Shown: in pieces, positions 25,308 through 51,218 of the stretch | How the letters are laid out: each line of letters opens with the position of its first letter | Numbering within the stretch: position 1 is the stretch's first letter | Source of the DNA: Herminiimonas arsenicoxydans | GTDB taxonomy: Bacteria > Pseudomonadota > Gammaproteobacteria > Burkholderiales > Burkholderiaceae_D | Length of the DNA: 64,000 bases | Assembly: GCA_000026125.1 (NCBI GenBank) | Contig: CU207211.1 | Coordinates: 1,550,001 to 1,614,000 of the forward strand | Direction of reading: 5' to 3' | Notes under the pieces: model-generated | What the model saw: only the letters and a program-made list of their open reading frames with translations | What the model was told of the DNA's origin: nothing | The model's database searches: none | Translations under genes and position numbers: made by a program

Positions 25308-25891
25308 ATGAACAATGCGCATCTTCACAGTCATGAGCATGGTGCACCTGGCGATGACGCCAGGACAGCAGAAGATGCCCAAAAATCATACGTCGATCCA
25401 GTATGCGGCATGAAAGTCGCCGCAAATCCAGAGCGGAAAATAGACCACGAAGGTCATGCCTATTACTTTTGCAGCACCCGCTGCATGAGCAAGTTCGCTG
25501 CCAGCACGCAAACTTATTTCAATCCTGCGCAGGCTGAATCGGAACCTGCGCTAGCGGAAGGCGCGATGTATACCTGCCCGATGCACCCGGAGATTCGACA
25601 GCCTGCTCCGGGAAATTGTCCAAAATGCGGGATGGCGCTGGAGCCGCTGATGCCCTCGCTGGAGGAGGAAGAAAATCCCGAGCTGGTCGATTTTAGCCAG
25701 CGTTTTTGGTGGACATTACCGCTGACGGTGATTGTCGTTGGACTGGCAATGGGTTCGCACAGTTTTTTCCCGGCAGGTCTGGCGTATCAGAACTGGATAG
25801 AACTCGTGCTCAGCACACCTGTGGTGCTCTGGGCCGGTTGGCCGTTATTCGTGCGCTGGGCGCAATCGATCGCAAACCGCAGTCCGAATAT
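25308..25891 (+). pseudogene. copA: Cu+-ATPase copy 2, 5' part, split by Tn3-family transposon
   Basis: It starts at ATG 25308 (MNNAHLHSHEHG, ribosome site AAGGA). The 5' part holds the YHS domain (DPVCGMKVAAN...FCSTRCMSKF), the [12 protein letters not shown]...CPKCGM segment and the first membrane helices, ending NRSPN-M. The reading frame meets the transposon end at 25892. Joining 25891 directly to 49456 restores [13 protein letters not shown], the same sequence run as in the intact copy ([13 protein letters not shown]). The fragment lacks the CPC motif and the phosphorylation domain, so it cannot pump. Confidence 0.93.
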
Positions 25892-25928
25892 GGCTAAATT
25901 TGCCCATCCCCCAAAAATGTAAAATTAG
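25892..25928 (+). repeat. left terminal inverted repeat (IRL) of the Tn3-family element
   Basis: This 37-bp repeat begins GGCTAAATTTGCCCATC and ends with TGTAAAATTAG. It is identical to the reverse complement of 49414-49450. It does not begin with the GGGG common in the Tn3 family. The flank AATAT at 25887-25891 is the left copy of the target duplication. Confidence 0.95.
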
Positions 25929-26005
25929 CCCCCAATACTCCCTGCCACCAGCAGGTTTTGCGCCTTTCTCGGGCCATTTTTGAAGCCGACTTCCTCGCTG
26001 TTTTT

Positions 26006-26017
26006 CCATTTTTGGGG
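26006..26017 (-). repeat. left subterminal repeat, inverted copy of IR core
   Basis: CCATTTTTGGGG is the reverse complement of the CCCCAAAAATG core of the IR (25909-25919). Its far edge is 109 bp from the start of the outer core. A mirror-image copy sits at the other end at almost the same spacing. A second TnpA-binding site is possible. Confidence 0.6.
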
Positions 26018-26027
26018 AGCTTTTAAC

Positions 26028-29000
26028 TCACCTTGGCGGTGCCTCTCCTTGGTCCTTGAGGGTATTGAGCCAAAAAGTCGGATCGAAATATAAAGATGCC
26101 AAGGCGTCGATGTCCAGTATTGAAGTGCTTGGACTGAATTCAAAGGTTCCGAACAGATTAATATGCTGCCAGGCAATTGGTGAAATCCGACGCATCAGCT
26201 CGATGGCCTGCTCGTCGCCCGAGGCCAATTTTCGCTCATAGACGCGGGACAATATCAACGTGTTGTAATAAACAACTGCATTGGCGATCAGCCGGGAACA
26301 TTCATTCCACACATGCTGCTCGTCCTCCGTTTTGACACGAAACTTCCCGCCGTTGACGAACGCGACCGCACGCCGGAAACGATGATAGGCCTCCCCACGG
26401 TTCAATGCCTTCTGGATCCCTTGTCGAACATTCGGGTCATCGATATATTTCAGTACGTACTCGGTAAAGCACAAATTGTCGAGTTCCCATAGCGCCCGCT
26501 TAGTCGAGTTTTGTCGTGTGTAGCTGGAGAGCTTTCTTACAATCGTCGCCTGACTAACGTCTTTTTGCGCGAGCGAAACCAGGATTCGCTGAATATTTGG
26601 CCACTCTTTGATAATCAGATCGTCATAGACGCGCCGACATGGCTTGATCAACATATCCCCATACTGATTCGGTTGCTGGAAACCGATGATTGAAGCAGCT
26701 TTTTTCGGGAAATTCTTGTACCGTGGCGCGAACTCATGGTTGAAAGTACGCAGGATGATGAAGTTGACCTGGTTCGTGCCGTGGGTATCGGTGGAATGGC
26801 GCTCCGGCCGGATGTCCGACGTATTGTTGTACAAGAGGTCGAACACGTAATGGCTTTCATGCTCATGGGTACCAATGACCTTTGCGTTGACTGGCACATG
26901 GTTGGCCACCAACGTTATACTGCTTACCCCTTTTTGCAGCCCAAAATACTTGGGTGAATGACGGGCATTCAGCGTATCGATCTGTGTCTCCATGCGCTGT
27001 CCATCGCTACTGGAGTGCATCGCATCCTGGATGTCGTATAGATGGAATGCCGGTAACTTCGCGATTGCGTTGGTAATAGCATCGTTAGCCGCTCGCAGAG
27101 TTTCCGGGCGCAAGAAATTACGGGAAGTCGACATCAGCGATGAATGGCTCAAGCCTGAAACTTCCGACATTTTGCCCAAGCCCATGTTCGTGCCCATCGC
27201 CACCACGCAAGCAAGGATTTCCTTCGGATCTGGATCGTGTTTGACGTACCGGTCCAGCACATGGGTAAAGCCTCCCAGGAAACTGGTTTCGCCGGCCACA
27301 AACCACAACAGATCAGCAATACCGATTCCGGGAAGTTGGCTGAAAAATGGGCTGTTGACCGGCTCATCTGATGGCGGATACAGCAAGTTCCACCGCCGCT
27401 TTTCTGGCTTACCCTTGAGTTTGATGTGCTTGTTCTCTCCGTCATCGATCCGTTGATTAACCCGTTGCAGGAGGGACTCGATTGATTCCTCTAATTCCGC
27501 TAACGTGTCCTCGATCGGCGCTGAAAGCAGCCTCAGGTTCAGATCACTCAGGATGCCGTCCCTATTTTTCCATTTCTCATCGTTGATCAGGTCGTCTTCA
27601 AACCGGCGGTATTCAGTACTCTCTTGAACGAACACGTCGCCCGCCTCTAAGGCATTGCGCAGCATCCGGTAGAGCAGAAATTCGAAACGGTCCGGTTCGA
27701 TTACTTTGCGCCGGCGATCCTCCTCTGACGGTACATAGATATAGCGGTGCAAATGTTTTGGAATGACGTCGACAGGAAAAAGCGCCGGATCAATCTGGCG
27801 CGGTGATTTGTCCCGTCTGAATAAATCCTGCAAAAAATGCACCGCATGGACTAGCGGCGCGTTTTCGATGCGGCCGGCGAAATCAAGGGTCACAAACAAG
27901 TGCCGCAAATTCTGTTTGAACGTCCGGGACAAAGTGCCGTAATACGCCCACTCGAAGGCCGACTTGTCGAAGGCGATGCGGCGCATATAGTCGGACACGA
28001 TCGGGAACTGCTCGCGGTCTAGCAGAGAGAATGCCTTGTCTTTAATTTCGGAGAATGGTACCTCGGGCGCAATCGATTCATCGACGAACAACCCCAACAC
28101 CTGCCCCGCGGCCTGGATGTTCTTCAACGCGTCTTCCAGCGCTTTTTGCATCGCGGTTTCGGACTGGGCCTTGGCCTGCTTTTCGTATTGGTTGACTAGA
28201 TGGATGAACGCGTCCGTCAGATTGTCATTGACCTGGCGAAAGCGCTGGTACGCAAAGCACAAGAGAAACAGCTGAACAGTCGGCCGCTGCATGCGCTGCA
28301 GCTTGTAGACCGTGTAGAACTTCACCATCGAAGCATAGTATTTACTGCTCTCCTGGGACAGGCCGGCAGACACAAGAAACGTCACCGCAAAGTCGTGCAG
28401 CGGCTCGAAGAATTCGCGGCGCGAAACTTCCCGACGAAGTTCTCCGTAAGTGAAATCCTTGGCCTCTCGTTTCAGGGCACTGATGGTATAGATTTGCTCA
28501 TCCGCTTCCAAAAGAGTGGTCAATCGCTGCCGGACCTCAGGTGTCATGGCATCGCTCAATAACTCAGTAATGCGGGTTCGTTCGCCGGACACAGCCTTGC
28601 CGACCACATCTTGGAGCGACGAGTACGACGGCGCGACGACGCGATTGATCTCGAGCTGCTGCAGAATTTCCCGCAAGATGAAGATCGGCTCGGTCGACAA
28701 CATCGCAAACCGCTGCGCCTTGGTGTCGACCTCTGCTTTTGCGTCGGTGCCGCACAGGCGGTAATCGCAGAGCTCAAGTATGGTTTTTTGCAGGCCACCG
28801 CGGGTAGGACGTGACGGCATCTTGATGTCGCCCACGTCGCGCCCCGGAAAATACGTATTCAACAAAAAACACAGATCCTCTTCGATATCGGCGGGTTCAA
28901 ACGAGAAGAATTGCCGCTTGGCCTTGAAGTAACCCAGTTCGAGAATCAAATGCGCTGCGACAGAAGCCGTTCTGATGGCGCCGGCGGCCGCCTTTTCAGC

Positions 29001-29114
29001 CGGACTCAAATCGAAATAGAGATGGCGGTCTTCATCGGTAAAGCGCGGCATGCCGTACAGATCCTCGATTTCGTCGTCGTTTAAGATCGATAGGCGATGG
29101 GACTCTAAAGCCAT
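26028..29114 (-). CDS. tnpA: Tn3-family transposase TnpA
   Basis: This 1,028-residue replicative transposase is near full length for the Tn4651-like branch. It has an N-terminal DUF4158-type region (about 1-170), a long central helical part, and a C-terminal DDE core with Asp at about 704 (SSSDGQRME), Asp at about 776 (HSTDTHGTNQ) and Glu at about 908 (ALNRGEAYHRF). TnpA binds the 37-bp ends and joins them to a 5-bp staggered target, producing cointegrates. Its stop lies 100 bp inside the left repeat. tnpS lies upstream on the same strand. Confidence 0.95.
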   Translation of the reverse strand: MALESHRLSILNDDEIEDLYGMPRFTDEDRHLYFDLSPAEKAAAGAIRTASVAAHLILELGYFKAKRQFFSFEPADIEEDLCFLLNTYFPGRDVGDIKMPSRPTRGGLQKTILELCDYRLCGTDAKAEVDTKAQRFAMLSTEPIFILREILQQLEINRVVAPSYSSLQDVVGKAVSGERTRITELLSDAMTPEVRQRLTTLLEADEQIYTISALKREAKDFTYGELRREVSRREFFEPLHDFAVTFLVSAGLSQESSKYYASMVKFYTVYKLQRMQRPTVQLFLLCFAYQRFRQVNDNLTDAFIHLVNQYEKQAKAQSETAMQKALEDALKNIQAAGQVLGLFVDESIAPEVPFSEIKDKAFSLLDREQFPIVSDYMRRIAFDKSAFEWAYYGTLSRTFKQNLRHLFVTLDFAGRIENAPLVHAVHFLQDLFRRDKSPRQIDPALFPVDVIPKHLHRYIYVPSEEDRRRKVIEPDRFEFLLYRMLRNALEAGDVFVQESTEYRRFEDDLINDEKWKNRDGILSDLNLRLLSAPIEDTLAELEESIESLLQRVNQRIDDGENKHIKLKGKPEKRRWNLLYPPSDEPVNSPFFSQLPGIGIADLLWFVAGETSFLGGFTHVLDRYVKHDPDPKEILACVVAMGTNMGLGKMSEVSGLSHSSLMSTSRNFLRPETLRAANDAITNAIAKLPAFHLYDIQDAMHSSSDGQRMETQIDTLNARHSPKYFGLQKGVSSITLVANHVPVNAKVIGTHEHESHYVFDLLYNNTSDIRPERHSTDTHGTNQVNFIILRTFNHEFAPRYKNFPKKAASIIGFQQPNQYGDMLIKPCRRVYDDLIIKEWPNIQRILVSLAQKDVSQATIVRKLSSYTRQNSTKRALWELDNLCFTEYVLKYIDDPNVRQGIQKALNRGEAYHRFRRAVAFVNGGKFRVKTEDEQHVWNECSRLIANAVVYYNTLILSRVYERKLASGDEQAIELMRRISPIAWQHINLFGTFEFSPSTSILDIDALASLYFDPTFWLNTLKDQGEAPPR

Positions 29115-29185
29115 GCGGGAGATGGGGAAAAAGTGTCAATTGTAATTCACATCAGCCGCATCAAGCTCGTTGCGAATTGCATGAC

Positions 29186-30154
29186 TTAGCGTTCAGTATC
29201 GGGCAACTGCGGTGTGACAGTCGATAACGCTCTCCCGATTCTGTCTTTCCCGAAAGGATCGGCGCCATCTACATAACGCATGGCTGACTGTACATTCTTC
29301 CAGCCGACGTACTCCATCAATGTCTTGATGTCCCAATCGTTGGATGTTGCCCAATTGGCGAAACCGCGCCGCAATGAATGCCCGCTGTACTGTTCTGCAA
29401 AAGCGATGCCGGCACCCGCAAAAAGCGATCGCAGCAACGGCACCAAGCTATTGATGTGTAATCCCGACTCGCCAACATGGCCCCAACGGTCGACGCCGCG
29501 AAATACCGCGCCTTCCGTTATCCCTGCGAGCGAGATCCAATCTAGGTAAGCGGTAACCGGACACAGTTTCGCCAATTCGGGGGCCTTGAACGTGGTTCCG
29601 TGGCCTAGACGGTCGCCTTTCGTCTGCGGCAAAAAGCATGTCATGCCTTCCCCCGGCACTACCTTGATATATTGCACTTGCAGGTTGGTCAATTCATCGC
29701 CGCGGAACCCGCGCCAGAATCCGAGCAACAGCAGCGCCTTGTCGCGTGTATGGCGCAGCTGTGCCGGCCGGTGGCCCGCATGTACTGATGCGGCTATCGT
29801 CTGGTCCAGCGACTGCGTCACCTGTTCGAGCTGCTCAATCTGCAGGGGCCTCGCACGTTTTTCCTGCGCAGGGTGTAATGCCTGAATGCCGCGCAAGACC
29901 TTGCGTACCACTGGCGCCTTGGTCGGATCCGGGAATCCTTGGTCGATATGCCATTGTGCCAACGCGGCCAGCCGCTGCTTTAACGTGTTGATGGATAAGG
30001 ACTTGGCATGATCGACCAAGTACCGCGCCAAACTATCTGCTGTAGCGGGCAAAAAACCACCCCACTCAACCTCAAAATGTCGAACGGCTGACTGATAACT
30101 GCGACGAGTATTGTCGCGTGTGGCGGCGTGAATATATGTATCAAGAGTAGTCAT
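29186..30154 (-). CDS. tnpS: TnpS-like tyrosine recombinase (cointegrate resolvase)
   Basis: This 322-residue integrase-family recombinase has a SAM-like N-domain (residues 1-100, SYQSAVRHFEVEWGG). Its catalytic domain has Arg in GFWRGFRGDEL (about 150), HSLRRGF (HxxR, about 267), GWKNVQSAMRYV with the nucleophile Tyr near 294, and a short tail. In Tn4651-type transposons TnpS with TnpT resolves cointegrates at a site lying between the two divergent genes. Here tnpT is 18 kb away, on the other side of the cargo. It is probably co-oriented with tnpA but read from its own promoter. Confidence 0.88.
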   Translation of the reverse strand: MTTLDTYIHAATRDNTRRSYQSAVRHFEVEWGGFLPATADSLARYLVDHAKSLSINTLKQRLAALAQWHIDQGFPDPTKAPVVRKVLRGIQALHPAQEKRARPLQIEQLEQVTQSLDQTIAASVHAGHRPAQLRHTRDKALLLLGFWRGFRGDELTNLQVQYIKVVPGEGMTCFLPQTKGDRLGHGTTFKAPELAKLCPVTAYLDWISLAGITEGAVFRGVDRWGHVGESGLHINSLVPLLRSLFAGAGIAFAEQYSGHSLRRGFANWATSNDWDIKTLMEYVGWKNVQSAMRYVDGADPFGKDRIGRALSTVTPQLPDTER

Positions 30155-30173
30155 GACATCTAGTAATGAAAAT

Positions 30174-30194
30174 CGTAATGAAAGTTATTTTACG
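30174..30194. other. candidate half of the TnpS recombination region
   Basis: A short inverted repeat, CGTAA (30174-30178) / TTACG (30190-30194), separated by 11 nt lies just upstream of tnpS. The position is where the resolution site of the tnpS/tnpT family would start. No match long enough to the tnpT-side palindrome is seen. This is weak, position-based evidence. Confidence 0.3.
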
Positions 30195-30265
30195 AGGTTA
30201 CCCACGCGCATTTTCCCCATATTCCTCACCGACATGTCCATTAGTCTTTTGGTTTGACAACTCTG

Positions 30266-30700
30266 TTACTGAAGTTTGTCGTGGCAAACACATCCATGGT
30301 CGTCCGTCGGCACATTCAGATTTTGAAGAATGCCGCAGTCACGAGTTGAATGTGGTCCTGAACATTGATCCCGCAACGTAAGCAACTGTTGTTCGAGGTT
30401 CAGCAGCATTTTTACGCGTGCTTGCACTTCTACGATATGTGAATCGAGTAAATCATCGACGCTCTGACAGCCGGCAGCAGGGTTACTTTGCAGATCGAGC
30501 AAAATGCGTATGTCAGCCAAGCCCATCTGCAATGAGCGACAGTGCCGGATGAACTGAAGTCGTTCTTGGTGATGCGCTTGATACTCACGATATCCGTTGG
30601 CTGTGCGTTCTGGAACAGCCAATATTCCCGATTTTTCGTAGTACCGGATTGTTTCCACATCGCATCCGGTCTTTGTAGCTAATTCACCGATTTTCATCAA
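30266..30700 (-). CDS. pbrR: MerR-family Pb/Cd/Zn-responsive regulator (PbrR-like)
   Basis: This 144-residue regulator has a winged HTH (MKIGELATKTGCDVETIRYYE), a coiled-coil dimerisation helix and a metal loop. Cys residues occur at about 13 (TKTGCDV), 78 (AAGCQSVDD), 112 (RDQCSGPH) and 119 (TRDCGIL), with a further pair in the tail (GCVCHDK). The Cys in the HTH and the later pair match PbrR. Apo-protein would repress and metal-bound protein activate the divergent ATPase promoter by twisting its 19-bp spacer. The matching dyad is at 30719-30739. Confidence 0.88.
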   Translation of the reverse strand: MMKIGELATKTGCDVETIRYYEKSGILAVPERTANGYREYQAHHQERLQFIRHCRSLQMGLADIRILLDLQSNPAAGCQSVDDLLDSHIVEVQARVKMLLNLEQQLLTLRDQCSGPHSTRDCGILQNLNVPTDDHGCVCHDKLQ

Positions 30701-30715
30701 AATCTCCCAAAGTGC

Positions 30716-30746
30716 TTGACCCCGTAGCGACTACAGGGTGTTTACT
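30716..30746 (+). promoter_or_regulatory. MerR-type operator-promoter of the transposon cadA/pbrA gene
   Basis: TTGACC (30716-30721) and TTTACT (30741-30746) are 19 bp apart. Between them lies the dyad ACCCCGTAG-CGA-CTACAGGGT (30719-30739), close to known PbrR/ZntR/CadR operators. It sits between the divergent regulator (start 30700) and the ATPase (start 30779). Confidence 0.85.
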
Positions 30747-30778
30747 AAGCATACATCATCTACCCAATGGAATAAAAC

Positions 30779-33013
30779 ATGGCTGAAATACAACGCCCTC
30801 AAAATAAGCAAAGCATTTCGGATTGTTGCGAAGGCAGTAATTGCAGGACTTCATCTAATGCTGCCATTCAACCGTTTCCAGCGCCATTGGATGCTCCATC
30901 AAATGCTCAATCGGTCCAATACCGTATTTCAAATATGGATTGTCCCACAGAAGAAAAATTGATTCGGAACAAGCTGGAAGGCATGAATGGAATTATTCGT
31001 CTCGACTTTAACCTGATGAACCGTATCCTGAGTGTTCACCATCAATTAAAGAGTCTGGAGTCCGTTACCACAGCACTGAAAGCCATCGGTATGGATGCGC
31101 AGCTTGTTGATAGCGAAGCGCATCAGCCAAAGGTTCCGGAATCAGCGTCATTAACTGCAGCACAAAAGATCTTGCTGGCTATTTCCGGTGTGGCAGCACT
31201 GGCCGCGGAAGTCCTTGCCTGGACTACTCATACCGATGGGTCGCCTCTAGTGATTGCACTGGCCTTTATTTCAATCGCAACAGGCGGATTGCCTACATTG
31301 AAAAAAGGCTGGATTGCGTTAAAGACATTCACCCTCAACATCAATTTTTTGATGAGTCTGGCGGTGATCGGTGCTATGGCAATCGGTCAATGGCCTGAAG
31401 CCGCAATGGTGGTATTTCTCTTTGCGGTCGCAGAGCTGATCGAGAGTCTCTCGCTCAATCGTGCGCGCAATGCGGTGCATGGCTTGTTGAAACTGGCTCC
31501 AGATGTCGTGACCTTGCAGGACGCCATTGGCGGATGGCAAGAAAAGTCCGTTGAAACGGCGGTTGTCGGCGACATGATGCGCGTCAAGCCTGGTGAGCGT
31601 ATTGCCCTTGATGGGATTGTCACAAGTGGCGAGTCTTCGGTTAATCAGGCACCTATTACTGGTGAGAGCATGCCGGTGGACAAACGTATAGGGGATGCTG
31701 TCTACGCAGGAAGTATCAATGAGCGCGGCCTGCTCGATATCAAGGTATCCACCAATAGCAGCAACAGCACCTTGGCGAGAATTGTTCGCGTCATCGAAGA
31801 GACGCAAAACAACAAGGCCGCAACCCAACGTTTTGTTGATACGTTCGCTCGTTATTACACGCCTGCTGTTGTCGTCATGGCTATTCTGGTTGCCGTAATA
31901 CCGCCTTTAGTATTCGGTGCGGAATTTACACCATGGCTTTACAAGGCTCTGGTCATGCTTGTAATCGCCTGTCCATGTGCGCTAGTCATTTCGACGCCGG
32001 TAACAGTGGTGAGCGGTCTGACCGCCGCAGCAAGACTCGGCATTCTTATCAAGGGTGGAGAGTTTCTTGAGGTGGGTTACAAGTTAAAAGCGATTGCGTT
32101 GGACAAGACAGGTACGCTGACAGCAGGTCAGCCATCTGTTGTTGACGTGAAAACGATAAGCAATAACGAGCGAGAAACCATCTTGTTGCTTGCAGCAAGC
32201 CTGGATGCGAATTCAGATCATCCTTTGGCAAATGCCATCGTTAAAGCAGGTCCTGAGAGCTCACTGCATAAAGTCGTAACCAATTTCGAAGCCTTACCCG
32301 GACGTGGCGTCAAAGGTGAGATCGACGGTACGATTTACTTTCTGGGAAATCACCGTCTGATCGAAGAGCTGAAGGTTTGTAATCCAGCGATTGAAGCGTT
32401 GTTGGATGTAATTGAAGGTACTGCGCAAACCGCTGTAATGCTCGCCACGGAAAAAACGGTCGTGGGTATTATCGCCATTGCCGATAGCTTGCGCGAGAGT
32501 GCTATCGAAAGTGTTCGTCAACTGAATCAACTAGGTATTACCACCGTCATGCTGACCGGTGATAACAATCGCACAGCGCAGCAGATCGGTGCTCATGTCG
32601 GTATTAGTGTCATCAAGGCAGAACTGCTGCCAGAAGACAAGTTGACCGAAATCAAAAACCTTCAATCAACCTACGGCGTAGTTGGGATGCTCGGCGATGG
32701 TATAAACGATGCGCCAGCGTTGGCGCAAGCCGATGTTGGTTTCGCAATGGGTGCAGCAGGTAGCGATACGGCAATCGAAACCGCTGATGTAGCATTGATG
32801 AATGATGACCTTGAGAAACTTCCGGTTTTTATCAAACTTAGTCGTGCTACCCGCAGCATTCTGATTCAAAACATCAGCGCAGCCATCGGTATTAAAGCAA
32901 TATTTTTTGTCTTGGCTTTTATGGGAATAGCGACACTTTGGATGGCTGTTTTTGCTGATGTGGGCGCGAGTCTCTTGGTAGTCTTCAACGGTTTGCGCTT
33001 ACTGAGGAAATGA
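30779..33013 (+). CDS. cadA: Zn2+/Cd2+/Pb2+-exporting P1B-2 ATPase (CadA/PbrA/ZntA), transposon copy
   Basis: This 744-residue inner-membrane pump has a Cys-rich N-terminus (DCCEGSNCRTS), an HMA domain with NMDCPTEEKLIRNKLEGM (MxCPTEE), CPC (IACPCALVIST), DKTGTLTAGQ, SDHPLANAI (HP motif), [20 protein letters not shown], and the TM8 Asp of divalent pumps (FADVGASLLVVFN). It expels soft divalent ions from cytoplasm to periplasm. It is transcribed divergently from pbrR and followed by lspA, the pbrA-pbrC arrangement of lead-resistance loci. A divergent second copy is at 60266-62485. Confidence 0.93.
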   Translation: MAEIQRPQNKQSISDCCEGSNCRTSSNAAIQPFPAPLDAPSNAQSVQYRISNMDCPTEEKLIRNKLEGMNGIIRLDFNLMNRILSVHHQLKSLESVTTALKAIGMDAQLVDSEAHQPKVPESASLTAAQKILLAISGVAALAAEVLAWTTHTDGSPLVIALAFISIATGGLPTLKKGWIALKTFTLNINFLMSLAVIGAMAIGQWPEAAMVVFLFAVAELIESLSLNRARNAVHGLLKLAPDVVTLQDAIGGWQEKSVETAVVGDMMRVKPGERIALDGIVTSGESSVNQAPITGESMPVDKRIGDAVYAGSINERGLLDIKVSTNSSNSTLARIVRVIEETQNNKAATQRFVDTFARYYTPAVVVMAILVAVIPPLVFGAEFTPWLYKALVMLVIACPCALVISTPVTVVSGLTAAARLGILIKGGEFLEVGYKLKAIALDKTGTLTAGQPSVVDVKTISNNERETILLLAASLDANSDHPLANAIVKAGPESSLHKVVTNFEALPGRGVKGEIDGTIYFLGNHRLIEELKVCNPAIEALLDVIEGTAQTAVMLATEKTVVGIIAIADSLRESAIESVRQLNQLGITTVMLTGDNNRTAQQIGAHVGISVIKAELLPEDKLTEIKNLQSTYGVVGMLGDGINDAPALAQADVGFAMGAAGSDTAIETADVALMNDDLEKLPVFIKLSRATRSILIQNISAAIGIKAIFFVLAFMGIATLWMAVFADVGASLLVVFNGLRLLRK

Positions 33014-33153: not shown

Positions 33154-33726
33154 ATGAACGATAAACTCATTCAGTATGGCGAGCCTGCGCCACTTCGTGC
33201 CCGCCCGAGACGGTGGTGGGCTCTTGCAATGATAGTGCTCATGCTCGATGTTACTTCCAAGGCGGCTATATCGACGTTGATGACATACGGAGCATCTATT
33301 CCACTTACTGGCTACTTCAACTTAGTGCATGCCAGAAATACCGGTGCGGCATTCAGTTTTCTGGCTAATGCCGGAGGTTGGCAGCGGTACTTCTTTATTA
33401 CTCTCGCATTCGTGGTTTCTATGTGGCTGGCTCTCGAGCTGCGTAAGCAGCTACCCACCTTATCGGCATGGGCCTACAGCTTAATTCTGGGGGGCGCACT
33501 TGGGAATGCGATTGATCGTTTATTGCGGGGATATGTAGTTGATTATCTCGATTTTCATTGGAGTGGCTGGCATTGGCCGGCGTTCAATGTTGCGGATATC
33601 GGTATCGTCTGCGGTGCTGTGCTGCTAGTGGTAGAAAGCCTGCGTCCAACTGTAGATGCATCAAAACAGCAGCCGAAGAACATTACTACGGCTGCTCGCA
33701 TTGAATCATCCACGAGAAAGTCTTGA
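33154..33726 (+). CDS. lspA: signal peptidase II-like protein (PbrC type)
   Basis: This 190-residue four-helix membrane protease is of the LspA family. The conserved blocks are LDVTSKAAI, GALGNAIDRLLRGYVVDYLDFHW and FNVADIGIVCG, containing the catalytic Asp pair (the Asp of VVDY/IDR and of NVAD). LspA removes lipoprotein signal peptides. In lead islands (PbrC/PbrB) a dedicated copy is linked to sequestration of Pb outside the cytoplasm. It follows the metal ATPase by 140 bp. A housekeeping lspA is expected elsewhere. Confidence 0.9.
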   Translation: MNDKLIQYGEPAPLRARPRRWWALAMIVLMLDVTSKAAISTLMTYGASIPLTGYFNLVHARNTGAAFSFLANAGGWQRYFFITLAFVVSMWLALELRKQLPTLSAWAYSLILGGALGNAIDRLLRGYVVDYLDFHWSGWHWPAFNVADIGIVCGAVLLVVESLRPTVDASKQQPKNITTAARIESSTRKS

Positions 33727-33987: not shown

Positions 33988-34947
33988 CTATTTTCCCCAT
34001 TTCGCAATGATGCGCACATAAACCAATTCGCTAAGCAGTTCCACGAGTGTTTGTGCAACGATGATCGCTGGTAAAACAGGAATTGCGCCAGGGATAGCAA
34101 GTGCGAGCGGTAAAACCACCAGCGAATTACGTGTTGCTGAGCTGAAGGCAACAGAGCGCGAAGCTGACGCGTTCAATTCTGCTTGTCGTGCAACCCACCA
34201 ACCACAAACTGGTGCCAGTACTGCATAAGCAACATACAGGGGCAGAACCAATAGCACTGAATCAATCGCTGGGCCAAGCTGAGGTACAACAGCTAAGATC
34301 ACTATAAATAGAACAAGCGCGGTGGCCGGAACAGGCGTAAGGCCAAGAACTTCAGAAATTTTCTTCCAAATATCACTGCGGCCGGCTAAAAGCTGAGTTA
34401 CTCCTGCCAATACTAAGGGCACAGCAATTAGCCATACAAATGCGTGTACGAACGGCCCGACTTCAACAAACCGTGCCGCGTCCTCACCAAGTGCTAGTCC
34501 TAAATAAACTGGAAGCAACAGCATTTGTACGATTAAAAGAACCGGAGTTGAAGCAAGCAATAGTCGTGCATCTGCACGTCCAAGATGCGCAAACGTCACC
34601 ACATAGTCGATGCATGGAGCCAGTAAGACCAGCATTACGCCTAGACGCAGCATTTGATCTTCGAGGAAGAAATGAACCAATGCCAGGACGATCATTGGAA
34701 TGATGATGAAGTTCGCAACGAGCAGTGCACCCATGAAGCGAACTTGCTTAAACGCCTGACCTAGCTCGGCTAACGGCACTTGCAAAAACGTGACAAAGAG
34801 CATGAATGCAAGCGCGGGATTAATTACCCCTTCCAACGCGGCAGTTCCCGGCACAACCATTGCTATGACCGAAGAGATCGCCACGGCACTGAAGTAGATT
34901 GCGATCTGCTGTCGTTCAAGTAGCTCTCTTAGATTTCCGATATTCAT
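33988..34947 (-). CDS. BASS-superfamily (ACR3-like) membrane carrier
   Basis: This 319-residue protein has about 9-10 predicted helices and belongs to the bile acid:Na+ symporter/ACR3 superfamily. The segment MLVLLAPCIDYVVTFAHLGRAD holds a membrane Cys in the same context as the As(III)-binding Cys of ACR3 (APC-hydrophobic-HL-D). ACR3 proteins export arsenite. No arsR, arsC or arsH is beside it, so the substrate may differ; it appears in some lead/zinc islands annotated as arsenic resistance. It ends 18 bp... upstream on the same strand lies the FTR1-like gene with only 17 bp between, so read order is carrier first, then the permease. Confidence 0.78.
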   Translation of the reverse strand: MNIGNLRELLERQQIAIYFSAVAISSVIAMVVPGTAALEGVINPALAFMLFVTFLQVPLAELGQAFKQVRFMGALLVANFIIIPMIVLALVHFFLEDQMLRLGVMLVLLAPCIDYVVTFAHLGRADARLLLASTPVLLIVQMLLLPVYLGLALGEDAARFVEVGPFVHAFVWLIAVPLVLAGVTQLLAGRSDIWKKISEVLGLTPVPATALVLFIVILAVVPQLGPAIDSVLLVLPLYVAYAVLAPVCGWWVARQAELNASASRSVAFSSATRNSLVVLPLALAIPGAIPVLPAIIVAQTLVELLSELVYVRIIAKWGK

Positions 34948-36911: not shown

Positions 36912-36958
36912 TGTTAGAAAAATGTTAGGAAGTTGAGACTGCAATGATACCAGATGCT

Positions 36959-37209: not shown

Positions 37210-37569
37210 ATGAAACGCCTCCTGATTATTTTAATGTTTGTGATTGTTCCGCTCCAGCTTAGCTGGGCAGCGGCTGCAGTCTATTGCGAGCATGAAACTA
37301 ATCCCAAAAGCGTACATTTTGGTCATCACGAGCATAAGCACATCGCATCTGCCGCAGAAGGCAAGACTGATGTTTCAAAATCAGCCGCAGCAGTTGATGG
37401 CGATTGCACTTCCTGCCATCTGGGTGGCATCGCAATCCTGACCATACCAGTACCAGCGATGGCGTTGGATCTTGTTAGTGCACCATCAATCACTGCTGGC
37501 AATCCCTTGCTTGCATCAAGTCGTCCCTCCCGACCTGAACGTCCCAAATGGGCAGTCGCCGCTTCCTGA
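37210..37569 (+). CDS. czcI: CzcI-like small exported protein (transposon copy)
   Basis: This 119-residue protein has a signal peptide (LIILMFVIVPLQLSWAAAA). The mature N-terminus is YCEHETNPKSVHFGHHEHKH, a His-rich Cys-containing motif, then DCTSCHLGG, and a tail RPSRPERPKWAVAAS. It aligns in layout and sequence with 59872-60228 (VLPLQFSWAAAAAYCQHE). CzcI opens czcCBA operons and is thought to modulate induction. It is 94 bp upstream of czcC. Confidence 0.83.
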   Translation: MKRLLIILMFVIVPLQLSWAAAAVYCEHETNPKSVHFGHHEHKHIASAAEGKTDVSKSAAAVDGDCTSCHLGGIAILTIPVPAMALDLVSAPSITAGNPLLASSRPSRPERPKWAVAAS

Positions 37570-37663
37570 TCCGGCGCCCGCTCGTTCTATTTTCTCTCTA
37601 CTCTTGATGTAGTTTCCAGCGCAGGTCGTCGGATTCCCTTTGTCTATTCCACAAGGAGATTCG

Positions 37664-40558: not shown

Positions 40559-44109
<3,551 letters not shown>

Positions 44110-44238: not shown

Positions 44239-44691
44239 TTGGATTGGAAAATGGAATTGCTGTTTTCTGGACGGATTGTCCTTGCCGCACTTCTCGGCGC
44301 AGTTATTGGTCTGGACCGCGAACGCCAAGGAAGTGATGCGGGGGTTCGCACATGCATGGCAATTTCGATAGGATCCTGTGCTTTTAGCCTGATCTCGCTT
44401 CATGTCATAGGTGGAGACCCGACCAGAATTGCCGCACAAGTAGTAACTGGTATTGGTTTTTTGGGCGCTGGGGTGATTTTGCACGTGCGAGGACGCATCG
44501 AAGGGTTGACGACGGCTGCAACTTTATGGGCTACCGCATCAATCGGGATGGCCTGTGCATTTGGCATGTATGTACTAGCGATATTAACGACGATTCTTAT
44601 ATATGGAATATTGGCACTCCGCCATGTTCCAGGCTGGAAAAAATTTACGCGAAAGCAGCCATCTCCAGATTCGTCGGAATGCGATCGCTAA
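44239..44691 (+). CDS. mgtC: MgtC/SapB-family membrane protein
   Basis: This 150-residue protein starts at TTG 44239 (ribosome site GGAG 6 bp before); ATG 44251 is the alternative. It has four or five helices with the MgtC signature: AALLGAVIGLDRERQGSDAG, RTCMAISIGSCA, VTGIGFLGAGVI and EGLTTAATLWATASIGMACA. MgtC proteins affect Mg2+ homeostasis and membrane ATPase activity. It is 130 bp downstream of czcA and may be in the same transcript. The link to zinc efflux is not known. Confidence 0.86.
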   Translation: MDWKMELLFSGRIVLAALLGAVIGLDRERQGSDAGVRTCMAISIGSCAFSLISLHVIGGDPTRIAAQVVTGIGFLGAGVILHVRGRIEGLTTAATLWATASIGMACAFGMYVLAILTTILIYGILALRHVPGWKKFTRKQPSPDSSECDR

Positions 44692-44863: not shown

Positions 44864-44950
44864 AGTTTTGCGGCAAGTGTGGCATGGAGCGCAAATAAAT
44901 TGCACTGACATATGTAACGTTAATTTTGTTTGATTGAACCGAGAATTCTC

Positions 44951-45865
44951 ATGAGCGCCGGCCATACCCATGCGTTACCGACAAGACAAAATCAGAAGTA
45001 TTTACTGATTGCTTTAGGTCTAACGTCTACTTTTCTTATAGCGGAAGTCGTCGCAGGTTTCATTACTGGCAGCCTTGCCTTGCTTTCCGATGCCGCACAT
45101 ATGCTTACCGATGCAAGTGCGCTAGCAATTGCGTTGGTGGCCATTCAGATAGGCAAACGACCAGCGGATAAGCGAAGAACGTTTGGCTATCTACGTTTTG
45201 AGATTCTGGCTGCAGCATTTAACGCGATCCTGCTTTTCTTGGTGGCGATGTACATCTTGTATGAGGCTTACCAAAGATTTCGTTCGCCTATAGAAATTGA
45301 ATCGACCGGCATGCTGATCGTTGCTTCGCTTGGGTTGGTCATTAATTTGATCAGCATGAAATTGCTTAGTGCCGGCAAAGATTCAAGTCTCAATATCAAA
45401 GGCGCGTATTTGGAGGTGTGGAGCGATATGTTGGGCTCCGTCGGCGTCATTATCGGCGCACTCGTTATTCGTTTTACGGGCTGGACGTGGGTAGATTCAG
45501 TGATCGCAGTTGGGATTGGTTTTTGGGTGTTACCAAGAACTTGGGTGTTGCTGAGAGAAAGTATCAACGTGTTACTTGAAGGTGTACCTGAAGGCATGGA
45601 TTTGGAAAAGCTTCAGCAATCCTTACTTGAGATCCCAAGTGTCCAAAGTGTGCATGACTTACACGTATGGTCAATTTCAAGTGGAAAAGTAAGTTTGACG
45701 ATGCATGTAGTTAGTGAGGATTCGGAAAATCTTCATCCCGTACTGATAGCGACTATTCAATCGGTACTTGCTGAACAATTTGAAATCCATCACACCACTA
45801 TACAAATTGAGAAGCAGCCTTGTGAACAGGCCGCAGTAGAGCATTCTTTCGGCCCTTCCAGTTAA
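44951..45865 (+). CDS. czcD: CzcD cation diffusion facilitator
   Basis: This 304-residue protein starts at ATG 44951 (MSAGHTHALP). Six helices carry the CDF motifs LLSDAAHMLTDASALAIAL (HxxxD) and LEVWSDMLGSVGVIIGALV (the second metal site). The C-terminal ferredoxin-like cytoplasmic domain has VQSVHDLHVWSISSGKVSL. CzcD exchanges Zn/Cd/Co for H+ or K+ into the periplasm and, in Cupriavidus, fine-tunes czc expression. It lies in the cargo after czcA, mgtC and the small zinc-ribbon gene. Confidence 0.93.
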   Translation: MSAGHTHALPTRQNQKYLLIALGLTSTFLIAEVVAGFITGSLALLSDAAHMLTDASALAIALVAIQIGKRPADKRRTFGYLRFEILAAAFNAILLFLVAMYILYEAYQRFRSPIEIESTGMLIVASLGLVINLISMKLLSAGKDSSLNIKGAYLEVWSDMLGSVGVIIGALVIRFTGWTWVDSVIAVGIGFWVLPRTWVLLRESINVLLEGVPEGMDLEKLQQSLLEIPSVQSVHDLHVWSISSGKVSLTMHVVSEDSENLHPVLIATIQSVLAEQFEIHHTTIQIEKQPCEQAAVEHSFGPSS

Positions 45866-45926
45866 GAAAGAATAGTGATTCATGCGAACAGGCACTCATT
45901 GGACAACAAATATATTTGAATAAATT

Positions 45927-46118: not shown

Positions 46119-46191
46119 TGCAGTAAATCTAATTACGTCATCTATGTCTTACGATATTTTTAAAGAATACGGATAGTCACGAAATCATATT

Positions 46192-46569
46192 ATGGGCACG
46201 CTGGTTACTAGATACTTTGCGTTCACAATGTTAGTCATATTTTTATTTATGACTAACGTTGGCCTATGGAGTGACCATTCAAACTGGCTCAACCATGAAC
46301 TTGAGCATAGTGTCAATGTCGCCCCCATGACAAAGACTGCTGAATATGTGTCATTGCATGATACGGATCATTCGAATAGCAGCATTGCAACAAGTTCCGT
46401 AGCAGTCGAGCACGAGTTATTACATGCCGCGAATCATCTTCAACTTTTCCTAGGCATCGACCTAGAATTTTCTTTTCTGCCTCTAACGCAATCTGCAGAA
46501 TTTTATTTCAATTATGTCGAAATTCTTCTTCTGGCATTCGACGCACCTTTTCGTCCTCCTCGGCTTTAA
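46192..46569 (+). CDS. small exported His-containing protein, CzcI-like layout
   Basis: This 125-residue protein has an N-terminal hydrophobic segment (YFAFTMLVIFLFMTNVGL) and His-bearing loops (SDHSNWLNHELEH, DTDHSNSSI, VEHELLHAANH). A C-terminal hydrophobic patch comes before the tail FRPPRL. The layout resembles the small proteins that open metal operons here (signal, His loop, Pro/Arg tail), but direct similarity is low. It precedes the glycosyltransferase by 225 bp. Function unknown. Confidence 0.55.
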   Translation: MGTLVTRYFAFTMLVIFLFMTNVGLWSDHSNWLNHELEHSVNVAPMTKTAEYVSLHDTDHSNSSIATSSVAVEHELLHAANHLQLFLGIDLEFSFLPLTQSAEFYFNYVEILLLAFDAPFRPPRL

Positions 46570-46794
46570 ATCCCTCTCAATCTAATACTTTGTCTTCGGT
46601 CTTTGTGCCGTGGCAACTAGGTATTAAGTATCAAAAATGCAGCGCATAGCGTGGATTGATTTCGCGCCAAATGCATGCCTTTGCCTAAGCACTTTTGGAA
46701 ATCACGCATATGGAAATGTGTGGTTGCACGCTTTTTTAAATAGCGCCCATTCGTGTCGGCCAAAATTTTCATTAAAAAGATAGAGAAGCCTGCG

Positions 46795-47811
46795 ATGAAG
46801 AACTTGCATCCGATTGCCCGTATCGAGACGGGTGAGTTGCCCTCATATATTTTGACTGTAGTCGTTCCCGTGTTCAATGAGGAAAGCGTCCTGCCGATAT
46901 TCCATGAGCGTTTGGAAAAGGCACTCTCCGCGTTAAATCATGAATGGGAAGTTATTTACGTTGACGACGGCAGCACTGATAGAACTCATTTCATTTTGCA
47001 ACAGCTACGAGCAAATAGTCCGAAGGTCGGAGTGGCTCGCTTTACAAGAAATTTTGGAAAAGAAGAAGCCATGAGTGCTGGCCTAAGACTGGCGCGTGGG
47101 GATGCCGTTGTAATTATTGATGCAGATTTACAAGACCCTCCCGAGTTGATCCCGGTCATGGTGGAAGCATGGTTAGAGGGTGTCGATATCGTCAATATGC
47201 GAAGAAGTCATCGAAGCGGAGAGTCATGGTTTAAAAAAGCGACGGCGCATGCTTTCTATCGTGTGATTAATCGCTTAAGCGAGGTTCCTGTTCCAGAAGA
47301 TGTCGGTGATTTTCGACTGCTAAGTCGACGTGCGATTGACGCGCTTAATCTTTTGGAAGAGAGAAATCGCTTCATGAAAGGGCTGTTCGCTTGGATAGGT
47401 TTCCCACAAGTGACGCTGAATTACAGTCGAGATGCTCGAGCAGCCGGCCATAGTAAATGGCGCTATTGGCGTCTCTGGAATTTTGCTCTTGAAGGAATTA
47501 CTGGATTCTCGGTTGCTCCTTTAAAAATCGCGACGTATGTGGGTTTAGCTTGTGCAGGTATCACGTTCATCTATGCCGCGTACTTTCTCATCAAGACATT
47601 ATTTATAGGTGAGTCTGTCAAAGGGTTTCCTACTTTAATCGTCACAGTGATGATCTTGGGTGGTTTGCAATTGATGGCGATAGGAATCATAGGCGAATAT
47701 CTAGGAAGACTTTTTATCGAGAGCAAGCGACGTCCACTTTATCTTTTGGAGGGATATCAGCCTTCTGCCATCGTGCAGTCGGAAGTGAAATCGAATGCCG
47801 TCCTGATTTAA
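46795..47811 (+). CDS. GT2-family glycosyltransferase (GtrB/DPM-like)
   Basis: This 338-residue protein starts at ATG 46795 (MKNLHPIARI). The GT-A fold has VVVPVFNEES, YVDDGSTDRTH and IDADLQDPPEL (the DxD-type motif), and two C-terminal membrane helices (APLKIATYVGLACAGITFIY and FPTLIVTVMILGGL). Relatives (GtrB, ArnC/PmrF) transfer sugars to undecaprenyl or dolichyl phosphate in the inner membrane, often to alter LPS. An envelope change limiting metal entry is a reasonable guess. It is the last cargo gene before the tnpT relic. Confidence 0.85.
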   Translation: MKNLHPIARIETGELPSYILTVVVPVFNEESVLPIFHERLEKALSALNHEWEVIYVDDGSTDRTHFILQQLRANSPKVGVARFTRNFGKEEAMSAGLRLARGDAVVIIDADLQDPPELIPVMVEAWLEGVDIVNMRRSHRSGESWFKKATAHAFYRVINRLSEVPVPEDVGDFRLLSRRAIDALNLLEERNRFMKGLFAWIGFPQVTLNYSRDARAAGHSKWRYWRLWNFALEGITGFSVAPLKIATYVGLACAGITFIYAAYFLIKTLFIGESVKGFPTLIVTVMILGGLQLMAIGIIGEYLGRLFIESKRRPLYLLEGYQPSAIVQSEVKSNAVLI

Positions 47812-47844
47812 GCGAGTCACTTCATCCTGCTTGATAACTAAGCC

Positions 47845-47917
47845 TTGCTGCAGTTAACGCATCTCCGCCTGTAATTGCTGAACCTGCTGCTCGTGCCGAC
47901 GCTGATCCTGGTCATGC
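47845..47917 (-). pseudogene. relic of a second tnpT-like gene at the cargo junction
   Basis: Read on the minus strand this 73-bp stretch gives ...DQRRHEQQVQQLQAEMR... and closely matches the coding sequence of the intact tnpT at 48808-48880, in opposite orientation. Shared strings include CGGCACGAGCAGCA and CAGCAACTGCAGG/CAGCAATTACAGG. The match then ends. It is evidently a fragment of a diverged tnpT left by recombination when the cargo was joined. Confidence 0.75.
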
Positions 47918-48180
47918 GTTGACCACCTTGATATCTATCAAAAGGATCGGATTGAAGTGATCTATAAGCGTAGAACTAAATATCTAACGGAAGTGCAAAA
48001 ATAAATAGTAAGAGGATTACTTCCGGAAAGGTAAGAAGATTAGTTCGATGCGCTTCTAAAGAAATGAAATGTACAAAACCACCTTGTTGAAAGGAAACAA
48101 ATTCGGCCTCACACAGGATAATGACTGATTATCCAGTATTAGATAACATGGTTTTATAGTTGATTTAAATCATAAAATAG
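47918..48180. other. AT-rich intergenic stretch upstream of tnpT
   Basis: There is no gene-like frame and no strong hairpin. It is AT-rich, in contrast with tnpT. It probably holds the tnpT promoter and part of a recombination region; the clear palindrome begins at 48181. Confidence 0.45.
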
Positions 48181-48208
48181 TATGTAATTACATGGTACGT
48201 AATACATA
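48181..48208. promoter_or_regulatory. imperfect palindrome upstream of tnpT: operator or resolution core
   Basis: TATGT-A-ATTAC / GTAAT-ACATA form roughly 10-bp arms around a 7-nt centre ATGGTAC, ending 23 bp before the tnpT start. Arm and spacer sizes fit a tyrosine-recombinase core site, and equally a TnpT operator. In tnpS/tnpT transposons the resolution site lies here, beside tnpT. Confidence 0.5.
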
Positions 48209-48231
48209 ACTTTATTTAGTTGAGGATTGCC

Positions 48232-49281
48232 ATGGCCCGTGCCGGATTATTGAAATCAGACGTCAAAAAAGCGCGCGATGCATTGATCGTGCAAAAGACA
48301 AATCCGTCGGTCGATGCCGTGCGGGTCGCCCTCGGCAATACCGGCTCGAAAACCACCATCCACAAGTACCTGAAGGAACTTGAAGAAGAGGATGGCGGCG
48401 TCGACGGCCGCAGGATCTCCGTCAGCGAGGCAATCCAGGATCTGGCGGAACGCATGGCGGCCCAGTTACATGCCGAGGCCGACGTACAGATCGAAGAGAT
48501 GGCTGCCAAAGCCGCTGAGCAGTCACGGGCGCACCAGAACGCAATGGCGACGCTTCAAGCGGGATGCGATGCGCTCAGCAACGACTTGCAGCGCAAGGAA
48601 ACAGCCCTGCAGAACGAGCAACAGGCGCTTGCAAGCGCCCAAGCGGCATTGCAGCGGGAAACGATCGCACGCGCAGGCTTCGAGGAACAGGCATCCGGCT
48701 TGAAAGAACGGTTGGCCGAGAACGAGTCGCATCGCCAGTCGCTGGAGCAGAAGCACGAGCACACTCGTCAAGCCCTGGAGCATTACCGGGAGTCTGTGAA
48801 AGAGCAGCGCGAACAGGATCAACGCCGGCACGAGCAGCAAGTCCAGCAACTGCAGGCAGAAATGCGCCAGCTACAGCAGACGGTCGTGATCAAACAGGAT
48901 GAGACGACACGCCTGAATCAGGAGGGTGCGCGCCTGGTCGCCGAACTGTCGCATGCCCAGAAAACGCTCTACGACAACCAAGGTGCAATACGGCAGCTTG
49001 AGCAAAAGCTAGAGACGCTGCAGGCGATCGAGCAACGGTACAAATTGCTCGAAGCACAGGTTGACGCGAAGGATGTCACCCTTGACGATATAAAGGTCAG
49101 ACTGGCTGACGAAACAAGGCAACGCACCGCATTGGCACTCGATGCACAGAAACTACAGGTAGAAGTGGCCGAGACACGTGCGAAACTCGACGCACAGCAG
49201 GTGATAGAAGCAGATTTGCGTACGATGCTGGCCAGCAAAAAAACGCAGCTAGAACTACAGCAAAGCCTGGATATTGAATGA
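48232..49281 (+). CDS. tnpT: TnpT-like KfrA-type coiled-coil protein
   Basis: This 349-residue protein starts at ATG 48232 (MARAGLLKSDVKKARD; ribosome site TTGAGG). The N-terminal KfrA_N DNA-binding domain (KKARDALIVQKTNPSVDAVR, about 10-110) is followed by a long coiled coil (about 120-345) rich in Gln/Glu. TnpT of Tn4651 binds the resolution site and helps TnpS recombine it. Here tnpT is at the far right, tnpS at the left, and both are oriented outward. KfrA-like plasmid proteins are an alternative label, but the context decides. Confidence 0.85.
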   Translation: MARAGLLKSDVKKARDALIVQKTNPSVDAVRVALGNTGSKTTIHKYLKELEEEDGGVDGRRISVSEAIQDLAERMAAQLHAEADVQIEEMAAKAAEQSRAHQNAMATLQAGCDALSNDLQRKETALQNEQQALASAQAALQRETIARAGFEEQASGLKERLAENESHRQSLEQKHEHTRQALEHYRESVKEQREQDQRRHEQQVQQLQAEMRQLQQTVVIKQDETTRLNQEGARLVAELSHAQKTLYDNQGAIRQLEQKLETLQAIEQRYKLLEAQVDAKDVTLDDIKVRLADETRQRTALALDAQKLQVEVAETRAKLDAQQVIEADLRTMLASKKTQLELQQSLDIE

Positions 49282-49324
49282 CGGGGGGACTGCATGAAAA
49301 AGGCAATCATCCAAAAATTGAACA

Positions 49325-49343
49325 GCCCCAAAAATGTAAAAAT
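49325..49343 (+). repeat. right subterminal repeat, inverted copy of IR core
   Basis: GCCCCAAAAATGTAAAAAT matches the inner half of the left-end repeat in the same orientation, so it is inverted relative to the right IR. The distance from its core to the right IR core edge is 108 bp, mirroring the 109 bp at the left end. Confidence 0.65.
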
Positions 49344-49413
49344 ACGTTGAAAACCGCGCCTAATAGAACCGCCAAAACGGCCAAAGAAACCAGAATTATG
49401 TCAAAGAGCAGAC

Positions 49414-49450
49414 CTAATTTTACATTTTTGGGGGATGGGCAAATTTAGCC
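49414..49450 (-). repeat. right terminal inverted repeat (IRR) of the Tn3-family element
   Basis: The 37 bp are the exact reverse complement of the left repeat. They are followed by AATAT at 49451-49455, the right copy of the target duplication, and then by the rest of the copper ATPase gene. Confidence 0.95.
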
Positions 49451-51218
49451 AATATGTGGACCCTGATTGGTTCGGGCGTGATGGCAGCATATGGCTACAG
49501 CGTGGTTGCCACGCTGGCACCGCAACTCTTTCCACCCTCCTTCCTTGAACATGGCCGCATCGGCGTTTATTACGAAGCTGCCACTGCCATCATTTCATTG
49601 ACTTTGCTGGGCCAGATCCTGGAACTGAAGGCGCGCTCGCAGACTTCCGCTGCCATCAAATCGCTGCTGGGTCTGGCGCCGAAGACAGCCCGCCGCATCA
49701 GTGCTGACGGGGCGGAAGAAGATGTACCGCTGAGCCATGTACATATCGGCGATGCCTTGCGTGTGCGGCCGGGCGAAAATGCCGGTCGATGGTGTCGTGA
49801 CAGAAGGCGAAAGCGCCGTTGACGAGTCTATGCTGACCGGTGAACCGATTCCTGTGACCAAGCGGGTCGGCGACAAGGTTATTGGCGCCACCATCAATAC
49901 CAGCGGCAGCCTGGTCATTCGTTCGGAAAAAGTCGGCGCGCAAACCATGCTGGCGCAGATCGTGCAAATGGTCGCACTAGCACAGCGTTCGCGCGCACCG
50001 ATGCAGCGGCTGGCGGACGTGGTGGCAGGTTACTTTGTCGTCATTGTGGTGGGGATTGCGCTGCTGACCTTGCTAGGCTGGGGCTTGTTCGGTCCGGCAC
50101 CGAGCTGGGTGTTTGGTTTCGTCAATGGGGTTGCGGTGCTCATTATTGCCTGCCCGTGCGCCCTGGGACTGGCAACACAGATGTCGATCATGGCAGCTAC
50201 CGGTCGCGCGGCAACGCAAGGCATGCTGTTTCGCGATGCGGCAGCGATAGAGGGTATGCGCAAGGTTGATACGCTTATCGTCGATAAAACCGGCACGCTG
50301 ACGGAAGGCAAACCGGCTTATGATCGCGTCGTTGCAGCATCGGGGTTTACCGTTAAACAGGTTCTGCAGATTGCGGCCAGCATCGATCAGGGTAGTGAGC
50401 ATCCGTTGGCGCAGGCGATTGTTGCCGAAGCACGCAGGCGTGGTGTCGCTCTGGACAAGCCGGACAGCTTTGAATCGTCCAGCGGTATCGGCGTGCGTGG
50501 CGTCGTTGCAGGCCGTCATATTGCATTGGGTAATACGGTTCTGATGAATGAGGAAAAAGTCGACTGGCGCAGTCTGTCCGGCGATGCTGAACAACTGCGC
50601 GAAGAAGGTGCCAGCGTCATGTATCTGGCCGCCGACAGGATTTTAGTCGGTTTGATCGCTGTCTCCGATCCATTAAAGGCAAACACACTGGAAGCCATAC
50701 AGACCTTGCGCGAAGAAGGCATCAACGTGGTCATGGCGACCGGCGATGGCGTGACAACGGCAAAATCGGTTGCCGCGAAACTGTGCATTACCGAGGTCTA
50801 TGGAGAAGTAAAGCCGCAAGACAAGCTGGCGCTGGTGGAGCGCTTTCAGCAACAGGGCAAGGTGGTGGCGATGGCAGGCGACGGCATTAATGATGCGCCG
50901 GCACTTGCGCGTGCCGATGTCGGCATTGCGATGGGAACCGGTACCGACGTTGCCATTAACAGTGCGCACCTGACCCTGATCAAAGGCGATTTGCGTACGA
51001 TCGCACGCGCCAGAAAGCTGTCATTTGATACGGTACGCAATATGCATCAGAACCTGGGCTTTGCTTTTATCTACAACGCATTGGGAATTCCATTGGCGGC
51101 TGGTTTGCTTTATCCGTTCACCGGACATTTGCTGTCGCCGATGATTGCAGCGCTGGCGATGAGCTTGAGTTCCGTATCGGTGATTAGCAATGCACTACGC
51201 CTGCGTGGCACGAAATGA
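49451..51218 (+). pseudogene. copA: Cu+-ATPase copy 2, 3' part, with an additional frameshift
   Basis: It continues the ATPase from [16 protein letters not shown]. At about 49776 the frame breaks: RVRPGEN-A... against the expected [10 protein letters not shown], while [22 protein letters not shown] continues in another frame to 51218. The sequence reads GAAAATGCCG, as if two bases were lost. The remainder contains CPC ([13 protein letters not shown]), [35 protein letters not shown] and MSLSSVSV. One oddity is Gln for Pro in the conserved [10 protein letters not shown]. Together with the transposon insertion, the gene carries two inactivating changes. Confidence 0.9.

Follow-up and report, generated by a model that had tools for sequence, protein, structure and literature searches.

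A 23,559-bp Tn3-family transposon of Herminiimonas arsenicoxydans with predicted lead, zinc and cadmium resistance genes between tnpS and a putative rst-tnpT segment

The window analysed in this work is a stretch of 64,000 nucleotides, positions 1,550,001-1,614,000 of the single 3,424,307-base contig of Herminiimonas arsenicoxydans, an environmental and non-pathogenic bacterium of arsenic-polluted sites; coordinates are those of the window, unless a contig or locus is named. It contains an element of 23,559 bp, lying between two 37-bp terminal inverted repeats, one at the tnpA end (25892-25928, forward strand) and one at the tnpT end (49414-49450, reverse strand), with the target-site duplication AATAT on the left (25887-25891) and on the right (49451-49455). 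After reverse-complementing, the two arms are identical at 37 of 37 nucleotides and the sequence diverges further inward; an apparent match of 38 nucleotides is made up of these 37 and one chance base from the flanking AATAT. The outer 12 nucleotides of the repeat are found in the window at two sites only, the two ends of the element. The two arms and the AATAT pair delimit the element, and the exact boundaries proposed by a sequence-only reading of the window, with identical repeats and AATAT on each side, are confirmed. A second copy was not seen in the genome, where the exact 10-nt end is found three times, two of them the element's own. The order is inverted repeat, tnpA, tnpS, an 18-kb pbr/czc cargo, rst, tnpT, inverted repeat.

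The transposase gene tnpA (26028-29114, reverse) encodes 1028 amino acids, with DUF4158 and DDE_Tnp_Tn3 domains in the domain scan; its product matches PF01526 at 5.4e-134 and NF033527 at 734.7 bits, the cut-off being 500. In an alignment with the structure sequence of Tn4430 TnpA, residues D704, D776 and E908 fall opposite D679, D751 and E881, which we take to be the catalytic DDE triad. The neighboring tnpS-like gene (29186-30154, reverse) codes for a tyrosine recombinase, the enzyme type used in TnpS/TnpT resolution, of 322 amino acids, in which R151, K179, H259, R262, W285 and Y294 align with presumably catalytic residues of Cre. Among the matches listed (40 of 2,023), recombinases on two Xanthomonas plasmids and one Pseudomonas plasmid are 58-62% identical to it and the others 24-69%. 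At the opposite end, a tnpT-like helper gene (48232-49281, forward), encoding a coiled-coil-like protein with a KfrA_N domain, is homologous to genes divergently adjoining tnpS in relatives; the listed reading frame begins with TTG at 48220, while the ATG at 48232 agrees with the relatives. By position, and by published descriptions, the 322-aa recombinase and the KfrA_N reading frame probably correspond to TnpS and TnpT. About 18.1 kb separate the two genes.

Two repeat segments beside tnpT form the putative resolution site, rst. Box P2, GGATAA-N7-TTATCC (48116-48134, forward), is the probable TnpS crossover site, and box P1, about TATGTAATTACRTGGTAYGTAAT (48181-48203, forward), the probable TnpT-binding site. 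P2 occurs once in the window at 11 or more of 12 positions, upstream of tnpT and with both arms intact (12/12); the best P2-like stretch beside tnpS reaches 7/12. P1, at no less than 18 of 23 positions, also occurs once, beside tnpT, and never in 20 shuffled windows. P1 had been considered as the TnpS core, and was dropped for P2, the likelier candidate, after the alignment of the L113 and Rugamonas modules described below. The DNA to the left of rst is a patchwork, and includes, at the cargo's right-hand edge, an inverted remnant of another tnpT (47755-47913, reverse; 66% amino acid identity over 53 residues). A repeat of about 95 nt at 47961-48061 is 92% identical to C1:1523860-1523954 of the same genome, near a second tnpS/tnpT pair; a second tnpT-rst-tnpS module (L111) lies at C1:1528450-1530607, about 20 kb before the window. 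A scan for promoters and terminators around tnpS and tnpT gave results no better than shuffled sequences, and for this reason expression of tnpS-tnpA from cargo transcripts was no longer considered.

The cargo begins with a CadR/PbrR-type MerR regulator (30266-30700, reverse), followed by a heavy-metal P-type ATPase of the Zn/Cd/Pb type (30779-33013, forward) and a signal peptidase II (33154-33726, forward), which, judging by their neighbors, we take to be pbrA and pbrC. An SBF-family transporter (33988-34947, reverse) and an FTR1-cytochrome c fusion (34965-36944, reverse), the latter presumably similar to pbrT, come next. The czc part comprises a czcI-like gene (37210-37569, forward; 98.7 bits, just below the cut-off of 100), a czcC-like outer membrane efflux protein (37640-38962, forward), a czcB-like adaptor (38971-40548, forward) and the heavy-metal RND pump czcA (40915-44109, forward), with a P-II-like protein between czcB and czcA (40559-40900, forward). 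It is followed, all on the forward strand, by an MgtC-family protein (44239-44691), a czcD-like CDF transporter (44930-45865), a hypothetical protein that searches of Pfam, NCBIfam and PADLOC left unmatched (46192-46569) and a family 2 glycosyltransferase (46753-47811). The protein families support the Zn/Cd/Pb cargo suggested by the sequence-only reading, and metal specificities and resistance are predicted from them. The features absent from that reading are tnpS, tnpT, rst and the placement of the cargo between tnpS and rst-tnpT.

Parts of both pbr and czc are found, in the same order, elsewhere in the genome (C1:519387-529661), at 83-87% DNA identity, and matches continue more weakly, at 67-80%, over C1:529661-532430; among the matches listed, the SBF-FTR1 part has no counterpart at C1:519387-532430. 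At this level of identity the transposon carries a diverged second pbr/czc set, and a recent copy made within the genome was rejected as its source. Near-identical cargo was not found on plasmids, where only pieces of 83-130 nt are shared, in 7 records.

The element interrupts a Cu-ATPase gene, whose 5' part, with YHS and HMBD domains, is found at 25269-25891 (forward) and whose 3' part, with a frame change near 49773-49780, at 49456-51218 (forward). For the empty site, 600 nt of left flank and 700 nt of right flank were fused at one AATAT and aligned to intact homologues; 15 stretches were recovered besides the left flank of the window itself, three of them being duplicate retrievals of a gene already counted. 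The 12 distinct uninterrupted genes, namely the paralogue within the window plus 11 genes from 10 other genomes, align with the fused flanks gap-free at the junction, and the insertion into the gene, already proposed, is certain. The site reads AATAT in 8 of the 12 and AACAT in 4. These genes are homologues, at 70-75% DNA identity, and do not represent the orthologous locus of a sister strain; among the genomes compared, none had that locus with an empty site.

A Tn3-type TnpA with its DDE triad, long terminal inverted repeats (37 bp at 100%, against about 38 bp for the family) and a 5-bp target duplication (AATAT twice, plus the empty site) agree with the earlier assignment to the Tn3 family. 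The repeats start with GGCT and not with GGGG, a common, but not defining, feature of Tn3-family ends. The lack of GGGG, pointed out in the sequence-only reading, is not unusual in this subgroup: a match to the window repeat at 24 or more of 37 positions, within 500 bp downstream of tnpA, was found at 42 of 79 relatives' loci, and in none of 395 shuffled stretches. With TnpA identity above 50%, the same holds for 36 of 62 loci. Since most of these repeats terminate in AGCC, ends with GGCT are typical of this TnpA subgroup, and the notion of an exotic repeat was rejected. An end starting with GAGG is also named in PMC4619425.

The nearest TnpA, 95% identical, is found on a metagenome contig of 4,987 bases, probably the same contig that carries a 79% identical TnpS (equal length, same source); members of the subgroup also occur on enterobacterial plasmids, at 62-64% identity. 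In a survey of 64 loci with TnpA identity above 48%, with two serine resolvases as queries, tnpS was found within 6 kb in 8, a serine resolvase match in 13 and neither in 43; for 13 of these 43, the upstream DNA is shorter than 1.5 kb. The element links the GGCT-ended TnpA subgroup to the TnpS/TnpT resolution system. At two loci, L062 and L063 (genomes G049 and G050), tnpS adjoins tnpA, and there was neither a tnpT match genome-wide (E <= 0.001) nor, in the locus, a P1-type rst core at 16 or more of 23 positions. In U. pigrum and Rugamonas, tnpT, rst and tnpS lie together at one side, with tnpA 35 and 14 kb away, respectively, a separation which we assume to be as in Tn4651.

According to PMC7157771, location of rst between divergent tnpS and tnpT is the rule. 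Tn4651 and TnXax1, as described there, resemble the window element in having a TnpS and TnpT resolvase with rst, but their tnpS and tnpT are divergent neighbors with rst in between, and passengers lie elsewhere; window TnpT and rst were compared with those of Tn4651 by description. The order that fits is instead the one of TnXocp1. As described in PMC4619425, TnXocp1 and its kin TnXop1, TnSml1 and TnPsd1 have linked tnpA and tnpS and, as in the window, metal-resistance passengers between tnpS and tnpT, czcCBA in the case of TnXocp1; the gene content of this region is described as diverse and highly variable. TnXocp1, of 18,767 bp, also shares an rst with two palindromic segments and 5-bp direct repeats. 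In contrast, its terminal repeats are 34 bp long and start with GGGG, and it has passengers beyond tnpT as well. A split tnpS/tnpT as a new architecture was therefore rejected, being already published for TnXocp1 (PMC4619425). Compared with the published description of TnXocp1, the window element is a TnXocp1-like member of the TnpS/TnpT class that differs in its type of repeat, and belongs to a kind already described.

The same order is shared by two further relatives. The element of Dyella jiangningensis (CP007444), organized as inverted repeat, tnpT, rst, 31 kb, tnpS, tnpA, inverted repeat, matches the window repeat at 18 of 21 outer positions and its TnpA, TnpS and TnpT at 59%, 60% and 46%; it is 37,228 bp long with a 31-kb gap, compared to 23,559 bp and an 18-kb cargo in the window. 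It is present as two 100% identical, inverted copies (L175-L180), which suggests that the cargo-split layout can move as a unit. The copies carry TTGTA and AAATA, one of each per copy; such swapped duplications would result if the DNA separating two insertions had been inverted, or if the 37-kb repeat had been misassembled. In Undibacterium oligocarboniphilum (L029) TnpA is 79%, TnpS 73% and TnpT, in part, 58% identical to the window proteins, and an outer membrane efflux gene occupies a gap of about 2.1 kb; the contig ends inside tnpT.

Spacing was surveyed in 195 genomes of the family, which contain 43 tnpS matches, 38 of them on a contig that also carries a tnpT upstream, in divergent orientation. 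As tnpT was scored among the first 10 candidates in most genomes, the five tnpS without tnpT may include misses. The gap between the two genes is below 300 bp in 28 of the 38, 525 bp in one and at least 1 kb in nine; among the latter, tnpS is apparently interrupted by another element in G142, and in G198 tnpS is partial and the nearest tnpT belongs to another tnpS. Ten gapped loci were inspected (window, L029, Dyella, L192, L193, L118, L121, L120, L123 and Rugamonas, the last with 985 bp); L221, where the gap is 2.7 kb, and L217 lay outside this comparison of P2. P2 remains beside tnpT, at 10 or more of 12 arm positions, in nine of the ten, L029 having retained the right arm alone. By eye, RND-like upstream DNA at 780-1000 of L029 joins rst within the P2 spacer and replaces the left arm.

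The gaps hold different genes: a CBASS-like cyclase with a 2TM effector in the tnpS to rst-tnpT interval of L193 (9442-10734), an RmrA-like HTH/M78 protein with a 224-aa partner, abutting tnpS in the rst-tnpS interval, in L120 (9060-10806), an RND efflux pump and outer membrane protein in L192, an outer membrane efflux protein in L029, and proteins without family match in L118 and L123. Gapped loci are scattered over the TnpS tree, which lacks resolution at 10 of its 23 inner forks, and only the pairs L192/L120 and L118/L121 group. We read this as a tnpS-rst slot filled several times. In the survey rst tends to stay with tnpT, and tnpS does not.

Identities of TnpS and TnpT, compared over 43 modules (861 pairs), are correlated (r 0.83), with one outstanding departure. 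L113 (G005:C15:20001-35000) and Rugamonas (L187) share 63% of TnpS and 89% of TnpT, a residual of 37.9 with a standard deviation of 5.3, the second-largest residual being 20.6. Their DNA is 87.8% identical, gap-free, over 1,161 nt from within P2; the break falls 1 nt into P2 (interval 0-11), and in L113 the left arm of P2 looks like that of the lineage to which its own TnpS belongs. The tnpS and rst-tnpT halves thus appear to have been swapped between lineages, and the position of the break fits an exchange by TnpS at rst, although an insertion left of P2 in Rugamonas weakens this reading. It is the one clean case in 14 pairs for which breakpoint placement was run, mostly uninformatively, and the only one with the break inside P2. 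The break lies 9-17 nt before P2 in L193/L112, where L193 has an insertion, and 54-72 nt after P2 in L207/L210; wide intervals including P2 were obtained for L214/U. pigrum and L203/L204, the L194/window pair is uninformative owing to the 18-kb gap, and in the remaining eight pairs breaks are outside P2, several of them from alignment gaps.

Such an exchange is proposed in PMC7157771 for the res sites of serine resolvases; no report of exchange between elements at rst was found in the literature listings and passages searched. We advance tentatively, and with more doubt than confidence, the idea that rst is a shuffling point, where TnpS would trade tnpA-tnpS and rst-tnpT halves between lineages, with the tnpS-rst interval as a recurrent dock for metal-resistance or anti-phage genes and the window element as one product. 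The tendency of rst, but not of tnpS, to stay with tnpT makes this idea testable.

We consider it very probable that the element, exactly bounded and carrying Pb/Zn/Cd resistance-type genes, is a Tn3-family unit transposon with TnpS/TnpT cointegrate resolution and its cargo between tnpS and rst-tnpT. TnpA would pair the two 37-bp ends and join them to the target, with a cointegrate as the product; replicative transposition into the Cu-ATPase gene would leave the 5-bp duplication, and TnpS, with TnpT, would resolve the cointegrate by recombining the two rst copies. As TnpS acts in trans and the whole rst adjoins tnpT, the tnpS-rst distance should not block resolution. The chances that the element is still active are about even. 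The sequence-only reading had called it composite. A composite transposon, or a cargo bounded by two insertion sequences, would suit the patchwork joins at the cargo's right-hand edge, with the tnpT remnant and the 95-nt repeat (47961-48055), but is highly improbable: there are one pair of ends and one duplication, no two insertion sequences flank the element, the cargo having been searched for other families by domain scans, direct repeats reaching 25 nt were not reported inside 25800-49550, and TnpA has a single match genome-wide (E <= 0.001). Within the unit transposon, the cargo might have been placed between tnpS and rst by TnpS recombination at rst, rather than by ordinary insertion or homologous recombination. 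The L029 join in the P2 spacer and the break of the L113/Rugamonas chimera in P2 suit an entry at rst; however, the window P2 has both arms intact, with nothing better than the 7/12 stretch beside tnpS, and the window holds no second P2 or P1 at the thresholds given above, which leaves this origin unlikely.

What the insertion cost the cell depends on the history of the target gene. Compared to the intact paralogue which remains within the window, the interrupted gene is 61% identical at the protein level in its left part and 85-86% in its right part, the latter read in two frames (paralogue residues 200-310 versus 309-789) with the switch near 49773-49780. The local motif, which removal of the element and one AATAT was said to restore, does run through the empty site unbroken, but this 3' frame change would leave the gene closed there as well. 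The further claim, an acquisition at the cost of one Cu+-ATPase, is only partly supported: the gene is interrupted, but with a second lesion present, which may have come earlier or later, loss of a working pump is not attributable to the insertion alone. That the frame change near 49.78 kb had broken the gene before the transposon came in, and the insertion cost nothing, is quite conceivable, if somewhat short of an even chance; two separate lesions and the intact paralogue favor it, while the frame change may be a base-calling error or may postdate the insertion, in a gene already silenced. The interrupted gene is one of several copper-pump genes in the genome.
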